A stretch of DNA of 42,609 nt from a virus. The stretch's first letter is position 1. Every line of letters begins with the position of its first letter. Location: the IMG/VR virus record IMGVR_UViG_3300031576_000124, positions 1-42,609 of that record, one strand, 5' to 3'. Below are positions 1-42,609 of the stretch, piece after piece. The notes under the pieces were generated by a model. It did not search any database and was not told the origin of the DNA. It saw only the letters and a list, made by a program, of their open reading frames with translations. Made by a program: the position numbers and the translations under genes.

Positions 1-127
1 GCATTGCGCTGCGCATTGCGCTGCGCATTGCGCTGCGCATTATCTATTGATAGTGCGCGAGTTAGTGATGTTGTGTTTTTAGAGGTTTGAGGTGTTTCGT
101 CTTTAGAAGAAGCCCACCGCTGTGTAG
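1..127. repeat. Left copy of the 127-bp terminal direct repeat (circularisation overlap)
   Basis: Bases 1-127 match bases 42483-42609 exactly. The overlap begins inside a 12-bp tandem repeat and the open reading frame on the minus strand continues across the join. 127 is also a common largest k-mer in de Bruijn assemblers, so the repeat is most simply an assembly overlap of a circular molecule, not a biological terminal repeat. The unit genome is then 42,482 bp. Confidence 0.9.
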
Positions 128-461
128 CTCTAACACGCGCCGCAAGGGTCCTCGCAGAGCTCCCGACGACCCAGGGTTGGGACGTCTTCCAGTCATGCAG
201 GAACCTGCCTCCTGGTGGTCCATCGAGCCATCCGATACGGACGAGTTCGGACGCCAGCCTGCCGACCTCTCCTGGCCATCTCGCGAGCAGTTCCAGGTCC
301 TCGTCGTCCTTCCCCGATAGGTCCCCGGTGGGGGCCTGCGTGGTAGCGAAGTCCCACAGACGGTGGAGGCCCAGGACGCCGTCGACGCCGAGCGCGCGGG
401 CGAGTTTGAGGGTCTTTGGATGGTCTGCCCAGCCGCAGATGACTTCGTACCTGTCTGGCAA
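1..461 (-). CDS. Replisome-organiser-like protein with C-terminal nuclease domain, 5' part (runs off the window end)
   Basis: This is the N-terminal half of a gene cut by the arbitrary contig ends. I chose the TTG at 461 because AGGAGG (471-476) sits 9 bases upstream and the previous gene stops at 488. The frame is open from 461 to base 1. It starts MPDRYEVICGWADHPKT and contains a 'LGLHRLWDFA', 'LVRIGWLD', 'FLHDWKTSQPW' pattern, typical of winged-helix N-terminal domains of phage replication organisers. It then enters a low-complexity stretch and NAQR repeats. Across the join it continues at 42482 in the same frame to a stop at 41711, giving about 410 residues. The role, recruiting host replication proteins to the phage origin, is inferred from the domain pattern. 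Confidence 0.75.
   Translation of the reverse strand, partial: MPDRYEVICGWADHPKTLKLARALGVDGVLGLHRLWDFATTQAPTGDLSGKDDEDLELLARWPGEVGRLASELVRIGWLDGPPGGRFLHDWKTSQPWVVGSSARTLAARVRATQRWASSKDETPQTSKNTTSLTRALSIDNAQRNAQRNAQRN
37..112. other. Candidate replication origin: inverted repeat plus AT-rich stretch
   Basis: Next to the 12-bp repeats lies the inverted repeat GCGCATTATC-tatt-GATAGTGCGC (37-60; one T-G pair in the stem). A markedly AT-rich stretch with a T5 run follows to about 112, in a genome that is otherwise GC-rich. All of this lies inside the replication-organiser gene. Direct repeats, an AT-rich unwinding region and a dyad in an initiator gene are the known design of lambdoid origins; the assignment here is inference. 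Confidence 0.45.
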
Positions 462-487
462 CGTTGAGCGCCTCCTAGGTCACTTCC

Positions 488-2278: not shown

Positions 2279-3049
2279 TCAGGCGATCATGCGATCCAAG
2301 AGCTCGAACGCGGATTTCTGGAGCTCGACAACCGTCGGTTGCAGTTTCGTTTTGGCTGCGTCCCACGCTGTGTCCCACGCTACGGCCCTCGCTGCGTCCC
2401 ACGCTGCGGCCCACGCTGCGGCCCTCGCTGCGTCCCACGCTGCGTCCCACGCTGCGGCCCTCGCTGCGTCCCACGCTGCGGCCCTCGCTGCGGCCCTCGC
2501 TGCGTCCCTCACTGCGGCCCTCGCTGCGGCCCACGCTGCGTCCCACGCTACGGCCCTCGCTGCGGCCCACGCTGTGTCCCACGCTACGGCCCTCGCTGCG
2601 TCCCACGCTGCGGCCGCTTTCGTGCGTGCGCGGTCAATGGGCGCCTGCGCAGCGACGAGCCCTGTAGTGTCAGTGAGCTCATGGAGAGTCCGTAGAAGGG
2701 CTGCCGGCTTCTTGATTCCAGCGAGGTCAAGCCAGGCTGGCGTGTGCACACGGATCATCCAATCCGTCAGCATCCAGCCACGTACCTCGTCCTTGCGGTC
2801 GCCTGCGGTGCCGATAACCCTATGGATGTACGGCTTGAGTTTCTGCCGGCTCTTATCGTCAAGGTCGTCGTTCCACCGACGCAGGAAGGCGCCTAGGACC
2901 GGGCTCACACACGCCGGATGGTCCGAGTGCGACGTGCCGGCCATCCAGGCGACGGCCTCCATGAAGCACACGCCTTGCTCTCGGCTCGTATGGTTCCCCT
3001 TCGTCAGGACAAGCGTATCGAGATTGCAGATGGCCTCTTGCGCCTTCAC
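2279..3049 (-). CDS. Phage protein with conserved N-terminal domain and Ala/Trp/Asp/Arg tandem repeats
   Basis: 256 residues. The first ~130 resemble a widespread phage protein of unknown function: 'CFMEAVAWMAG', 'SDHPACVSPVLGAFLRRWND', a conserved 'VIGTAGD' and a 'DWMIRVHTPAWL' segment. Residues ~143-231 are built of four-residue repeats alternating A-W-D-A and A-R-A-A, encoded by a 12-bp minisatellite, which would form a long amphipathic helix. The last ~25 residues ('VVELQKSAFELLDRMIA') are non-repetitive. The ATG at 3049 overlaps the previous stop. A structural or binding role for the repeat is inference. Confidence 0.75.
   Translation of the reverse strand: MKAQEAICNLDTLVLTKGNHTSREQGVCFMEAVAWMAGTSHSDHPACVSPVLGAFLRRWNDDLDDKSRQKLKPYIHRVIGTAGDRKDEVRGWMLTDWMIRVHTPAWLDLAGIKKPAALLRTLHELTDTTGLVAAQAPIDRARTKAAAAWDAARAVAWDTAWAAARAVAWDAAWAAARAAVRDAARAAARAAAWDAARAAAWDAAWDAARAAAWAAAWDAARAVAWDTAWDAAKTKLQPTVVELQKSAFELLDRMIA
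2355..2618. repeat. 12-bp minisatellite inside a coding region (22 units)
   Basis: Twenty-two tandem units close to GCTGCG(T/G)CCC(A/T)C with substitutions such as GCTACG and GCTGTG. Each unit encodes four residues on the minus strand. Because the unit is a multiple of three, the other frames are also open (Gly-Arg-Ser-Glu/Val, Cys-Gly/Val-Pro-Arg and Ala-Ala-Ser-His types). Those readings have no start signal of their own and are treated as shadows. Confidence 0.9.
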
Positions 3050-8974: not shown

Positions 8975-9396
8975 TGTCCAGCCGCCGCTTCGTCGTCTTC
9001 GAGCCAGGGGAACGGAAGCGGAATCTGATAGCCGCTCTCTTCCTGGAACCGATGAGCCAGAGCGTTGGCCTTTCGGCACGTACGCTCGCCGATCTTTGCG
9101 GTTTGATCGACCGTGGTCCTGGCCTCATCGAGGCTCATGAGACGAGGCTGGATCCATTCGTGGTGGAGCTTGCCGTCTTCGTCCATCGTGGGGACGTTCT
9201 CCACCACCCGGCGTCCGCTCGTGTTCTTCCACATTCGGAGGACGAGCCGTGCCCGGTCGCGGATCAGCTTCTTGCGGTTCCCGATGAGGCACTTCGAGGA
9301 GATGTTCTTCTCGAGGTAGACGTAGAGGTCCTCGCTCCCGAAGCGGGATTCCATGTTGCCGATCAATTCCTTGATCCGTTCGTCGATTCCGCTCAT
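8971..9396 (-). CDS. Hypothetical protein
   Basis: 141 residues, mixed charge, with 'NRKKLIRDRARLVLRMWKNTSGRRVVENVP' in the middle and the acidic end 'FPWLEDDEAAAGQ'. It starts as ATGA with the ParB-like gene stop and ends as GTGA with the HTH gene, so it belongs to the same operon. No known domain, signal peptide or membrane segment is seen. Confidence 0.6.
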   Translation of the reverse strand: MSGIDERIKELIGNMESRFGSEDLYVYLEKNISSKCLIGNRKKLIRDRARLVLRMWKNTSGRRVVENVPTMDEDGKLHHEWIQPRLMSLDEARTTVDQTAKIGERTCRKANALAHRFQEESGYQIPLPFPWLEDDEAAAGQ

Positions 9397-10154
9397 GCGA
9401 GCTCCTCCGTGATCTTCGACAGCTGCTCGATCAGTCTCTTGATCTGGCCGCGGACGGCGCGCTTACGTTCGGCTGTCCACTTCGCTGCGATGCGGGAGAT
9501 GCCGTGCTTGTTGACGCTGAGCGCGAGCGTCCCGAGGTCTGCGATGAGCCGCGCCCACTTCATACCGGGCTGGCGATCGACTTCCTCTTCTACCGTCGGA
9601 GCCTCGGCCTTCCGGACTTCCCGCACAGCCTTCGAAAGCGTGATCTCGCCGGCCTTCACTCTCACGAAGAGTTCGGGGGCCTTCTCTTCGAGGGCGGACG
9701 CCTGGTCCACGTACGTGTGGGACACGCCCACGGCTGCGGCTGCCGCATCTCTGGCTTCACTTCCGCCACTATTGGCGGGAGTGTTCGCCTTCTTTCCAGG
9801 CGCCGTCTTGCCGTGCTCCCGCTGTCTCTCCTTCGCTTCCTTTTTGAACTCGGGGAGCAGCTCGGCCGCGACCGTGGCCAGTTGCGACGGCGTCAGGTGC
9901 CTCCGTCTCAGGTTCGCGGAGATGACGTAGGCCGTCGCAGACGAGCCGTTGCCCTCCCACTGCACGGACCTCGGCTCGATCCCGAGCTTGTTGCAGGCCC
10001 GCCAGCGGTTGCGGCCGTCGAGGAGAACCTCACCATGGAACACGATCGGCGCTTGCTGGCCGTGGGCCTTGATGTCCTGGACGAACGATTCGAACTCCTC
10101 ACCCTCGAGGAGCGGGAAAGCGCGGGCGGCAGGGTGGACTTTCACCGTACCCAC
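9393..10154 (-). CDS. ParB/Srx-like N-domain protein
   Basis: 253 residues. Residues 1-~105 form a ParB-type N-terminal domain: 'HPAARAFPLLEGEEFESFVQDIKAHGQQAPIVF', then 'LLDGRNRWRA' (44-53) in the position of the CTP-binding G-E-R-R-x-R-A box of ParB. 'LTPSQLATVAAELLPEF' and 'AVGVSHTYVDQASAL' fit the following helical DNA-binding part. The C-terminal ~60 residues are basic and helical. In phages such proteins act in transcription control, partition or as nucleases; no parA is nearby, so partition is unlikely. It overlaps the upstream gene by 13 bases. Confidence 0.8.
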   Translation of the reverse strand: MGTVKVHPAARAFPLLEGEEFESFVQDIKAHGQQAPIVFHGEVLLDGRNRWRACNKLGIEPRSVQWEGNGSSATAYVISANLRRRHLTPSQLATVAAELLPEFKKEAKERQREHGKTAPGKKANTPANSGGSEARDAAAAAVGVSHTYVDQASALEEKAPELFVRVKAGEITLSKAVREVRKAEAPTVEEEVDRQPGMKWARLIADLGTLALSVNKHGISRIAAKWTAERKRAVRGQIKRLIEQLSKITEELA

Positions 10155-10551: not shown

Positions 10552-10734
10552 CTAGGCGACGCGGCGGCGGGAGCGCTTCGAACGGAGATAGCGGCGGATG
10601 AACCGGCGGAGGACGGCGGACGCCCCGCCGTCGGACTTGGCAGCCGCCCGGAATGCGGTTGCGGTTGCCTGGTCTTCCTTGAGGCCGATGAAGCCGGTCT
10701 TGGGGCCGAGTTCTGAAGTGTGGTTTAACTTCAT
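10552..10734 (-). CDS. Small ribbon-helix-helix-like protein, first gene of the early operon
   Basis: 60 residues, strongly basic at the C-terminus ('RRYLRSKRSRRRVA'). 'GFIGLKEDQATATAFRAAAKSDGGASAVLRRFIRRYL' fits a strand followed by two helices, as in Arc/CopG ribbon-helix-helix repressors. The TAGATT -10 box ends 8 bases before the ATG, so transcription would begin at or next to the start codon: a leaderless mRNA. The first codons (ATG AAG TTA AAC C) contain one of the operator-like GTTAAACC sites, which would suit autoregulation. The fold assignment is tentative. Confidence 0.6.
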   Translation of the reverse strand: MKLNHTSELGPKTGFIGLKEDQATATAFRAAAKSDGGASAVLRRFIRRYLRSKRSRRRVA

Positions 10735-10741
10735 GCGGCCT

Positions 10742-10769
10742 AATCTACGCCAGGTTAAACCGCTGTCAA
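10742..10769 (-). promoter_or_regulatory. Early promoter for the leftward operon
   Basis: On the minus strand a perfect -35 TTGACA (10764-10769) is followed after 16 bases by TAGATT (10742-10747; four of six to consensus). An operator-like GGTTTAACC lies wholly within the spacer (10753-10761). The distance from the -10 box to the ATG at 10734 leaves almost no leader. Confidence 0.65.
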
Positions 10770-10795
10770 GGGAAAAGTTTAACCAGTTAAAGTCG

Positions 10796-10824
10796 AGGTT
10801 TAACTAAAGTGTCGCGGCTAGAAT
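10796..10824 (+). promoter_or_regulatory. Possible rightward promoter
   Basis: TAGAAT (10819-10824) is a good -10 box. No convincing -35 lies 16-18 bases upstream: that position is covered by an operator-like AGGTTTAAC. If used, it would transcribe the recombinase remnant and read on into the tRNA-Ser half. Weak evidence. Confidence 0.3.
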
Positions 10825-10834
10825 GGTTTAACCG

Positions 10835-11553
10835 TGGAAGAAAAAAGCGGACGTCTGGAAGGATTCGTCGGGTTCAAAGCGACGGCACTGCGAGCGCCTG
10901 GGCTACATCTCGACGAATCCGGTGCCCCGCCTCGAGCGGCCCCGCCTGGTCCAGCGGACGGTCCGGGAGGGACTCACGGAGCACGAGCTCGCCCGCCTGT
11001 TGAAGGCCGCGTGGGAAGACCCCGACCGCCGGGCTCCCGCCGTTGCCCTGCTCGCTGCCCGAGCTGGCCTCCGGGCGTCGGAGATTGCCCAGCTCCGTGG
11101 GACCGACGTCTACCTCGACCGCGGGTACCTGCGCGTTGAGGTGCGGGGCGAGCGGGCGGACCGCACGAAGACCGGGCAGGCGAGGACCGTTCCGCTGTCG
11201 GATCCGGATCTCAGGTCGGCGCTGGAGGAGCTGCCACGTGGCGGCGCTGGCCCGCTGCTGGGCGTTCGGTCCCGAGACGGAGGCAGGGTCTCCTATCGCG
11301 AGCGTGGCGAATGGCGGGCCTTGCAGGGGCTCCGCAGGTTCATCGCCTGCGTCACAGCTACGCCACGAGGGAGGCGCTTGCGGGGACTCCACTGCCCCTG
11401 CTCCAGCGTCGCCTCGGGCACCGGACGATCCTGACCACGATGCGGTACGTCCACGTCCAGGACCCGAGCGACGCGGCCTCACCACCTCAGACAGCCCACA
11501 GTGGAAGACGGCGAATCGCCCACACTCGTAAAACGCGCGCGGTTCCGAAGTAA
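10835..11553 (+). pseudogene. int: Tyrosine recombinase (integrase) remnant: 5'-truncated and frameshifted
   Basis: The only plus-strand gene. One frame (open from 10835, first GTG at 10922) reads '...GYISTNPVPRLERPR...GLTEHELARLLKAAWEDP', then 'AARAGLRASEIAQLRG' with the first catalytic Arg and 'RTKTGQARTVPLS' with the catalytic Lys, to about 11310. The HRLRHSYAT box, 'LGHRTILTTMRYVH' and the Tyr nucleophile continue in a different frame (11311-11553), so a -1-type shift lies near 11305-11330 with no classic slippery site. The SAM-like core-binding domain is missing and no start codon precedes its last residues. Across two frames all catalytic residues survive. A sequencing error could explain the shift but not the truncation. 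Confidence 0.7.
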
Positions 11554-11774: not shown

Positions 11775-11942
11775 GCAGTTCGTTGGTTGTGGTCGAAATG
11801 TGATCACCTGGCCAAAGATTTTACATCTGAAGGTTGTATTTGCCCCGGAATCTGTCCCCAGCGTGTGGCCCGCTGGCTCCACCACGGCGCCGCTTACACG
11901 CGAACATTCCAGGCCCGAATGCTCGCGCCAAAACGGCGGGGT
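11605..11942. other. Non-coding attP flank
   Basis: I see no supported gene here. Short plus-strand frames are readings of the tRNA half and its flank. The region holds the short direct repeats described for attP and, at its right end, a hairpin (11900-11926) just past the stop of the leftward late operon. Confidence 0.6.
11900..11926 (-). terminator. Hairpin after the late operon
   Basis: On the minus strand GCGAGCATTC-gggcctg-GAATGTTCGC forms a 10-bp stem with one G-T pair, 17 bases beyond the last late-operon stop codon. No T-tract follows, so it may need a factor, or may simply protect the 3' end of the message. Confidence 0.35.
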
Positions 11943-13468: not shown

Positions 13469-13704
13469 TCGTACCTCCTGTGCTGGTCGAAGTCGATCCA
13501 CTGTTTGCGTGGCTTCGACGGCATCTTGAGTGTGTGGCTCGTTTTCTTCGGCGGCCTCCATGCGCAGTCCGCGCAGATGGTTCCAGCGGGCGCGGGCTCG
13601 TGGCACAGGCGGCACTCGTGAGTGGTGCCGGGGGCAGGAGTCGAACCTGCCGTGCTCGGGTTATGGGCCCGAGTAGTCCCCACGTTCTCTCCCCGGTCCT
13701 TCAT
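13465..13704 (-). CDS. Small Cys-pair protein overlapping a tRNA-like sequence
   Basis: 79 residues. The ATG at 13704 overlaps the previous stop as ATGA, and the stop overlaps the endolysin GTG as GTGA, which supports translation. C-R-L-C and C-A-D-C (near 31-48) suggest a zinc ribbon. Residues ~3-27 are read through the sense strand of a tRNA-like sequence (13623-13697), so this part of the protein may be incidental. Function unknown. Confidence 0.5.
   Translation of the reverse strand: MKDRGENVGTTRAHNPSTAGSTPAPGTTHECRLCHEPAPAGTICADCAWRPPKKTSHTLKMPSKPRKQWIDFDQHRRYE
13623..13697 (-). tRNA. Degenerate initiator-tRNA-Met-like sequence (CAT)
   Basis: Minus strand. The anticodon arm TCGGG-CCCATAA-CCCGA has the three G-C pairs typical of initiator tRNA and anticodon CAT. 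The T-arm (GCAGG-TTCGACT-CCTGC) is perfect, and CCA is encoded after discriminator A. The acceptor pairs CCGGGG with CCCCGG, and the first pair is A-C, like the mismatch of initiator tRNAs. Against a working tRNA: base 33 is C instead of T, and the D-arm is two bases short with no clear stem. It lies inside a coupled reading frame. Functional tRNA, decayed tRNA and captured fragment are all possible. Confidence 0.55.
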
Positions 13705-41294: not shown

Positions 41295-41714
41295 TCACGC
41301 GAGGGGCTTGACAAGATCCGCGGGTTGGTGTTCAGCCGAGAGTTCCAGGAAACAGATCAGCCCCGCGTGAGCGTGGGCTCGAGTCCGCCTCAGCGCCCAG
41401 AGCTTGCGCTTCCCACGCTCGCCACGCAGGGCCCAGGACCAGACTTCGAATCGCCTCGACGCACACGCCAGGAGCTTCCCGAGTCGCGGCTCTGCAAGGC
41501 ACTTGTGCGCGTGAGCAGCGAGAGTCGACGCGGGGCAGGCCTGCACGTACAGCGTGTGGTCCGCGGCGATCGCCTCGATGTCGGCGAGGCCGAACAGGTC
41601 TTGCCGAATCCCGTGGGGCCCGGCGTACTTGAGAAACCGCTCGACGACCTGTGCCTCGTAGCCGAGTTCACGCAGGACCTGCAGCGAGCGTGCGGTTGGG
41701 CTCGTGCTGCTCAC
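41295..41714 (-). CDS. Phage nuclease-fold-like protein
   Basis: 139 residues from the GTG at 41714, which overlaps the previous stop as GTGA. 'SLQVLRELGYEAQVVERFLKYAGPHGIRQDLFGLADIEAIAADHTLYVQACPASTLAAHAHKCL...FEVWSWAL' matches a phage family with a restriction-endonuclease-like core: Asp in 'RQDLFG', and a strand 'LYVQA' where Gln replaces the usual Glu. The variant site leaves open whether it cuts DNA or only binds it. It follows a second nuclease-fold domain encoded by the preceding gene. Confidence 0.65.
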   Translation of the reverse strand: MSSTSPTARSLQVLRELGYEAQVVERFLKYAGPHGIRQDLFGLADIEAIAADHTLYVQACPASTLAAHAHKCLAEPRLGKLLACASRRFEVWSWALRGERGKRKLWALRRTRAHAHAGLICFLELSAEHQPADLVKPLA

Positions 41715-42609
41715 TTGGCCGGCTCCGGCTCGAGCTTCGGCTGACGGGCGGTCGGTGGCGTACCGCCCCGCAAGTAGTCGAGCCAACCCTCGGCGCGCCA
41801 GTGGTCCTCGGTGCGAGCGAGGCAGTCCTCGAGGTCGAGGCCGAGGGCTCTGTAGGAGTCGGCGAGTTCGGTGCGTCGTAGGACGGCCCGGGTCTGACGG
41901 TCGAGACCATCGTTCCCCGAGTTCATGGTCGACCGGTCCCAGAGGCGGTTCAGGTCCGGGGCGACGTCGGTTCTGGTGGTTCTCAGATCTCGCTGCGGAG
42001 GCCGAAGTGGCTGTGGTGCGGCGAGGCAAAGCACGAGCGTCCCATCGATCATGCGGTCGTTGCCGTTACGTCTGAGCACGACAGCGCGATCCCCATCGAA
42101 CGTCTTGAGCTTCATCAACGACTTCACACGTGGCTCTAGATAGTCCAGCTCAATCGCGATTCTGTGTGGAGCCGTCACGACGAGATCAATGCGTCCAGAC
42201 TTCCCATCGCCGCGGTCCGGAACTTCGAACTCTCGTTCAACCGACCAGCCAAGGGCCAGGAGCTGACGCTCGACGGACTTATGCATCTCCGTGGAATCTC
42301 CGAATGGTCCTGGGAGACGGCGGACCACCCTCCGGAGATCTTCCAGTCCCGGAGAGAGGGTTCCGCGGGGTTGCCTTTCCCCGTGCGCGCTGACGGGCGA
42401 AAGTGCGACTGACGTGGTTTCCTCGCGCGCGCGAGGGGTTCTCCCTCCCGTACTCCCGACCTCCCGGAGAGCATTGCGCTGCGCATTGCGCTGCGCATTG
42501 CGCTGCGCATTGCGCTGCGCATTATCTATTGATAGTGCGCGAGTTAGTGATGTTGTGTTTTTAGAGGTTTGAGGTGTTTCGTCTTTAGAAGAAGCCCACC
42601 GCTGTGTAG
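41711..42609 (-). CDS. Replisome-organiser/nuclease-fold fusion, 3' part
   Basis: Continuation of the gene that starts at 461; bases 42483-42609 duplicate 1-127. After four NAQR units the frame runs through a Pro/Gly/Arg-rich linker. From MHKSVERQLLALGW (codon at 42286) it enters a domain with 'GRIDLVV' and 'IAIELD', spaced like the acidic motifs of PD-(D/E)XK restriction-endonuclease-fold domains, then 'PRVKSLMKL'. The last ~70 residues are charged and unrecognised. Starts at 42328 (GTG) or 42286 (ATG, weak Shine-Dalgarno) are possible for a separate shorter protein, but the frame is open through the whole upstream region, and I favour one fusion protein. The stop overlaps the next gene as GTGA. 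Confidence 0.7.
   Translation of the reverse strand, partial: TQRWASSKDETPQTSKNTTSLTRALSIDNAQRNAQRNAQRNAQRNALREVGSTGGRTPRAREETTSVALSPVSAHGERQPRGTLSPGLEDLRRVVRRLPGPFGDSTEMHKSVERQLLALGWSVEREFEVPDRGDGKSGRIDLVVTAPHRIAIELDYLEPRVKSLMKLKTFDGDRAVVLRRNGNDRMIDGTLVLCLAAPQPLRPPQRDLRTTRTDVAPDLNRLWDRSTMNSGNDGLDRQTRAVLRRTELADSYRALGLDLEDCLARTEDHWRAEGWLDYLRGGTPPTARQPKLEPEPAK
42471..42523. repeat. 12-bp coding tandem repeat (NAQR array), candidate iterons
   Basis: Four perfect copies of GCATTGCGCTGC (42471-42518) plus GCATT. Three of the copies recur at 1-36 through the terminal overlap. On the minus strand each unit encodes Asn-Ala-Gln-Arg in the replication-gene frame, so changes in copy number keep the frame. 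The array lies beside an AT-rich stretch and an inverted repeat inside a replication gene, an arrangement like the iterons within lambda gene O. Confidence 0.85.
42483..42609. repeat. Right copy of the 127-bp terminal direct repeat
   Basis: Exact duplicate of bases 1-127. One copy should be dropped when the sequence is circularised. The tandem repeat at the join could be collapsed, so the true number of 12-bp units is uncertain. Confidence 0.9.

Follow-up and report, generated by a model that had tools for sequence, protein, structure and literature searches.

Phage replication initiators are usually described as proteins that bind DNA and recruit a helicase. Lambda O and the Phage_rep_O family (PF04492) combine a DNA-binding N-terminus with a C-terminal tail, and iterons and an AT-rich tract are located within the gene itself. 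To our knowledge lambda O is without a nuclease-fold domain. The gene analyzed here has the same anatomy, with an N-terminus that is presumed to bind DNA. It is encoded by a virus from IMG/VR (record IMGVR_UViG_3300031576_000124), whose complete sequence of 42,609 nt we refer to as the window; the virus is circular and infects bacteria. Unlike in lambda O and Phage_rep_O, the N-terminus of the window protein belongs to the phrog_9474/2509 family, the iterons are 12 bp long, and on the strand of the gene the AT-rich tract precedes them on the 5′ side. A PF04492 domain was not found in the window protein by Pfam search, and it is present in the relatives L001 and L133. Origins inside initiator genes and PD-(D/E)XK folds are each known. 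Searches of the open-licence literature did not turn up the two combined in a recurrent module of phage initiators, which is apparently undescribed, nor any account of O-type initiators of phages with a nuclease domain. The reading that we favor, and hold to be rather probable, is that the gene encodes an initiator with its origin inside the gene, joined to an optional PD-(D/E)XK-fold accessory module that would act at the opened origin or early fork.

A candidate origin inside the initiator gene

Using PHROG profiles, residues 12-164 of the protein matched phrog_9474 ("replication initiation protein", 9e-15). The N-terminus also matched phrog_2509 (6e-3), a family that is matched at 3e-33 by L121, a relative in which the same domains are fused. 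Judged by these profile matches, the N-terminal part (residues ~1-112, positions 126-461, minus strand), which is presumed to bind DNA, belongs to phage replication-initiation families. Neither part of the initiator reached the cut-off of any Pfam or NCBIfam family in the profile search. For the N-terminal domain there was no Pfam match, searches against PDB sequences returned chance matches only, and the AlphaFold2 (AF2) model was poor, with a pLDDT of 43. The winged helix that the earlier note proposed is thus a putative one for residues 1-110, presumed from membership in PHROG families. The C-terminal tail (residues 303-410, positions 41714-42037, minus strand) gave no family match in the profile search; relatives have an O-like or primosomal C-terminus at this position.

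The genes around the initiator are an ordinary tailed-phage set, including those for the small and large terminase, portal, an S49-type protease, major head protein and tape measure. On the other side of the initiator gene lie genes for an SbcC-like protein, a YqaJ/RecE-type exonuclease and a ParB-like protein. No helicase was recognised adjoining the initiator gene in this phage. The phage also contains a tRNA-Met(CAT) gene (positions 13623-13697, minus strand). The contig that carries the loci L118 and L284 (IMGVR_UViG_3300009176_000022) encodes a ParB-like protein that is 47% identical to the product of positions 9393-10154 of the window, and no match to the large terminase of the window was found on that contig.

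The earlier note described a tandem repeat, NAQR, and took it to be a linker. The repeat itself stands: NAQR is present four times and is encoded by 4.4 copies of the 12-bp unit GCATTGCGCTGC, which are 100% identical according to TRF, and this unit does not occur anywhere else in the whole genome. The first part of the array is located at positions 1-41 (minus strand), and a further unit lies beyond the circle join at positions 42471-42482 (minus strand); the array that TRF reports at 42471-42523 takes in the duplicated terminal repeat. The units are better read as origin iterons beside an AT-rich tract than as a linker only. This tract, a candidate unwinding element, is located in the gene at positions 38-112 (minus strand, codons ~117-141) and has an AT content of 62.7%, compared with a mean of 35% (sd 5.3). 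On the whole circle no 75-bp stretch has a higher AT content, and one at 10773 has the same. High AT content by itself does not set the tract apart, because other AT-rich spots exist in the genome, at 10709-10847 and near 11780. The first of these is mostly located in a gap between frames of at least 80 aa and is possibly a control region.

Codon usage in the tract departs from that of the gene. A third position G or C is found in 7 of the 29 codons 113-141, versus 277 of the other 382 codons of the initiator gene (p=3e-7, which is optimistic because the codon segment was picked after the AT peak had been seen). Such an AT bias at third codon positions is as expected if the DNA, and not the protein, is under selection. 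We rejected selection on the linker at the protein level only, as its codons end in A or T, contrary to the bias of the gene. The NAQR "linker" is probably, as judged from its anatomy, the replication origin itself, located inside the initiator gene as in lambda O. In this reading the gene encodes the replication initiator of the phage, and the middle of the gene is its origin: the N-terminal domain would bind the 12-bp iterons within the gene and the adjoining AT-rich tract would open, as in lambda O.

Repeats at the equivalent place were also found in other genes in which the domains are fused. In 10 of 20 such genes the linker repeats ahead of the nuclease-fold domain exceeded those in codon shuffles (p<=0.03). 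Linker periods of 12 bp were found in L284, which has about six 12-bp units at the same place, and in L279, and the linker of L121 contains a CGTAACGCGTGACGTAA repeat. In L121 this iteron-like repeat is also present within the N-terminal coding region (L121:9926-9954), 300 bp before the linker array. The window contains a second 12-bp tandem array at positions 2355-2615, with ~22 copies that are 84% alike; it encodes a repeat rich in alanine and tryptophan (AAWDAARA...) and lies in a frame of 256 aa (positions 2279-3049, minus strand).

The nuclease-fold domain

Residues ~200-302 of the protein (positions 42038-42346, minus strand) form a separate domain, delimited by a profile match, alignment, AF2 and Foldseek. 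Residues 218-294 matched phrog_1347 ("unknown function") at 1e-14, the only family matched. The profile of phrog_1347 describes the same domain of 100-120 aa and spans stand-alone proteins (Fels-1 STM0899) as well as O-like fusions (L152). The family is not labelled as a nuclease fold, and the initiator type and the tail are different in the window. An AF2 model, for which the domain was aligned with 26 relatives, had a pLDDT of 89.6 and a pTM of 0.82, and confidently predicts an alpha/beta structure (H-H-E-E-E-H-E) containing the alpha-beta-beta-beta-alpha-beta core of the PD-(D/E)XK superfamily. The top matches of the model in a Foldseek search of the PDB were Bax1, SPO1766 (3dnx), McrC, DdmD, the R2 nuclease domain and EndoMS (probability 0.92-0.99 for the top five), which we take to share the PD-(D/E)XK fold; BglII and archaeal Hjc appeared further down the list. 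No PDB match of the domain had an E-value below 1e-3, and the assignment is therefore one to a superfamily and not a close match. At this level the model indicates that the C-terminal domain has a PD-(D/E)XK-type fold.

The domain shares its fold and a D...E-x-D core with REase_MTES_1575 (PF18741), Bax1, SPO1766, EndoMS and archaeal Hjc. Its scores against PF18741, however, were 12.6-14.3 bits, far below the curated cut-off of 38.2. Unlike the PD-(D/E)XK nucleases compared, it has a conserved PRxKSxxKL motif and lacks the E-x-K lysine. The conserved residues are D253, E265, D267, R272, S275, K278 and L279. The D and E of the classical motif are conserved, and its lysine is an aspartate (E-x-D); judged by the alignment, K278 may substitute for it. 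The E of E-x-D is altered in L136 (V) and L221 (Q), possibly inactive copies, and the L279 gene stops early within the domain. The median dN/dS of the domain was 0.105 (129 non-independent pairs), and the domain is under purifying selection.

A nuclease activity of the domain and its role are putative; catalysis is plausible, and uncertain because E-x-D replaces the usual E-x-K. Relatives with a PD-(D/E)XK fold that have no cutting activity are known, and the domain might be one of these, a catalytically dead fold that only binds DNA or protein, for instance by holding single strands or docking the helicase. The unusual E-x-D and the loss of its E in two copies would fit such a protein. An active site, instead, would fit the low dN/dS and the conservation of the equivalents of D253, E265, D267 and K278: among 27 divergent members, almost all that cover these positions have kept each of them. 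We consider a dead fold possible but clearly the less probable explanation.

Fused and stand-alone forms of the domain

Relatives were collected with degenerate DNA patterns for conserved motifs in IMG/VR and GTDB genomes, and by a search of a phage collection; neither the whole window protein nor a two-sequence alignment of the domain retrieved a relative when used as query against IMG/VR. Besides the window, the domain is fused behind the linker of initiators in ~25 other records, some of them near-duplicates. These initiators are of at least six types: Phage_rep_O (PF04492; L001, L131, L133, L142, L151, L155 and L175), Lin1244_N (PF14297; L159), PHROG types 9773/6493/428 (L152 and L136, the latter with a Phg_2220_C tail), 16167/12556/2149/1408 (L150 and L135), 3926 (L156) and 2509/9474 (L121 and the window). 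The N-termini of L221 and L290 were counted to no initiator type. In L121, L150, L152 and L159 the domain is followed by a tail that matches an O-like or primosomal C-terminus. The earlier note had proposed an initiator with a nuclease fold of its own. This agrees with the initiator-family N-terminus, with the PD-(D/E)XK-type model and with the fusion of the domain to other initiator types, and homologues do not always encode the two domains as separate genes.

The domain also exists as a stand-alone gene of ~120 aa directly upstream of a DEAD/H-type helicase gene, as in Fels-1 and KPP5665-2, in ~30 records in all; in annotated loci of this form a primase gene comes next after the helicase. 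Immediately downstream there is a helicase-like gene in almost every stand-alone case and in many of the fused ones. The helicase that often follows fused copies looks DnaB-like from its start and its Walker A motif, and the one in L001 carries the annotation DNA helicase. No direct repeats were found around the three stand-alone copies examined. Together, these sequence comparisons indicate that the domain is a recurrent module that was exchanged among many families of initiators and is also a separate gene upstream of phage helicases. Matches to the domain at 40-46% identity were also obtained in 51 Xanthomonas plasmid records (conjugative plasmids).

Initiators exist without the domain, as two natural pairs of near-identical genes differ by its presence, and the nuclease-fold domain is thus optional. 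The N-terminal region and the iteron DNA of L284 and L287 are nearly identical, and only L284 has the domain; the second pair consists of Providencia phage PSTCR7lys and L004/L011/L015. Of the 91 frames of Phage_rep_O type that the fetched loci contain, 11 have the domain and 80 lack it, a sample that is biased by the fetching and does not give a frequency.

By its observed position the module follows the origin segment and separates the DNA-binding part from the tail. It would thereby stand between the binding of the origin and the recruitment of the helicase, and probably has an accessory function beside the helicase once the origin has opened or at the early fork, where it would cut, nick or grip branched or unwound DNA.

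The domain could also be a selfish or competitive nuclease that spreads between phage origins. The DNA-binding part of the initiator would aim it at related origins that are free of the insert, and repair would copy the insert in (domain homing), or competitors would be excluded by cutting. Consistent with this, distribution of the domain is patchy, and the near-identical genes with and without it have the insert just behind iterons that are common to both alleles. Phage initiators joined to HNH domains (phrog_5718; L130) likewise combine an initiator N-terminus with a nuclease domain at the place of the linker, although HNH is an unrelated fold; phrog_5718, labelled HNH endonuclease, has the same initiator N-terminus as L135 and L150, and in L130 an HNH nuclease is found in the same linker. 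On the other hand, the insertion boundaries vary and show no single fixed sequence, and the stand-alone form, which has no DNA-binding part, stays upstream of a helicase in ~30 records, which points to a role in replication. We regard spread by homing or competition as improbable. The constant helicase neighborhood, even of the stand-alone form without a DNA-binding partner, speaks for a role at the fork or the opened origin rather than for homing alone. The L130 protein (L130:1566-3269) is of initiator type, and its linker contains the PD-(D/E)XK-fold domain together with an HNH nuclease (PF01844, 9e-10); this extra HNH indicates that nuclease domains enter the initiator linker more than once.

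Because the module is found in initiators of six types or more, and in Salmonella Fels-1 as a gene of its own, phage origins may commonly involve a step that has been overlooked. An accessory function at the origin would give phrog_1347 a testable role, and the near-identical initiator pairs with and without the domain are ready comparisons.

The reading frame across the circle join

The initiator gene is split by the ends of the record. Positions 1-127 and 42483-42609 are identical and constitute the two copies of a terminal direct repeat, so that the record closes to a circle of 42,482 bp. On the minus strand the frame runs from 461 to 1 (residues 1-153 and part of codon 154) and continues in the same frame over the join from 42482 to 41711, with the stop codon at 41711-41713. 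Its 1233 nt correspond to 410 codons plus stop, in agreement with the ~410 residues given in the earlier note. The TTG start codon (459-461) and the Shine-Dalgarno sequence AGGAGG 9 nt ahead of it (471-476, minus strand) were likewise found as described.

An overlap of 127, a usual k-mer length of assemblers, and the position of the join within a tandem repeat might suggest that two halves were joined artificially, the contig being non-circular or the two parts being separate genes, but we consider this highly improbable and rejected an assembly artefact, because the array of 53 bp is shorter than the 127-bp overlap, either half, read in the same frame, matches homologues that are replication proteins, and the initiator and nuclease-fold parts occupy one unbroken frame in L121, L156, L284, L290 and other homologues, which makes the join credible.

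The TTG at 459-461 is the only in-frame ATG, GTG or TTG before codon 206, and an in-frame stop is located just upstream of it. A gene caller that accepts only ATG or GTG would therefore recover at most the C-terminal 205 aa (from the GTG at 42328), which confirms the mis-calling predicted from the first reading. Also as predicted, the list of open reading frames contains a false frame of 115 aa reading MRSAMRSAMRSAMRSA (MRSAMRSA...) at positions 42175-42522 (minus strand); it is a shadow of the repeat and not a gene.
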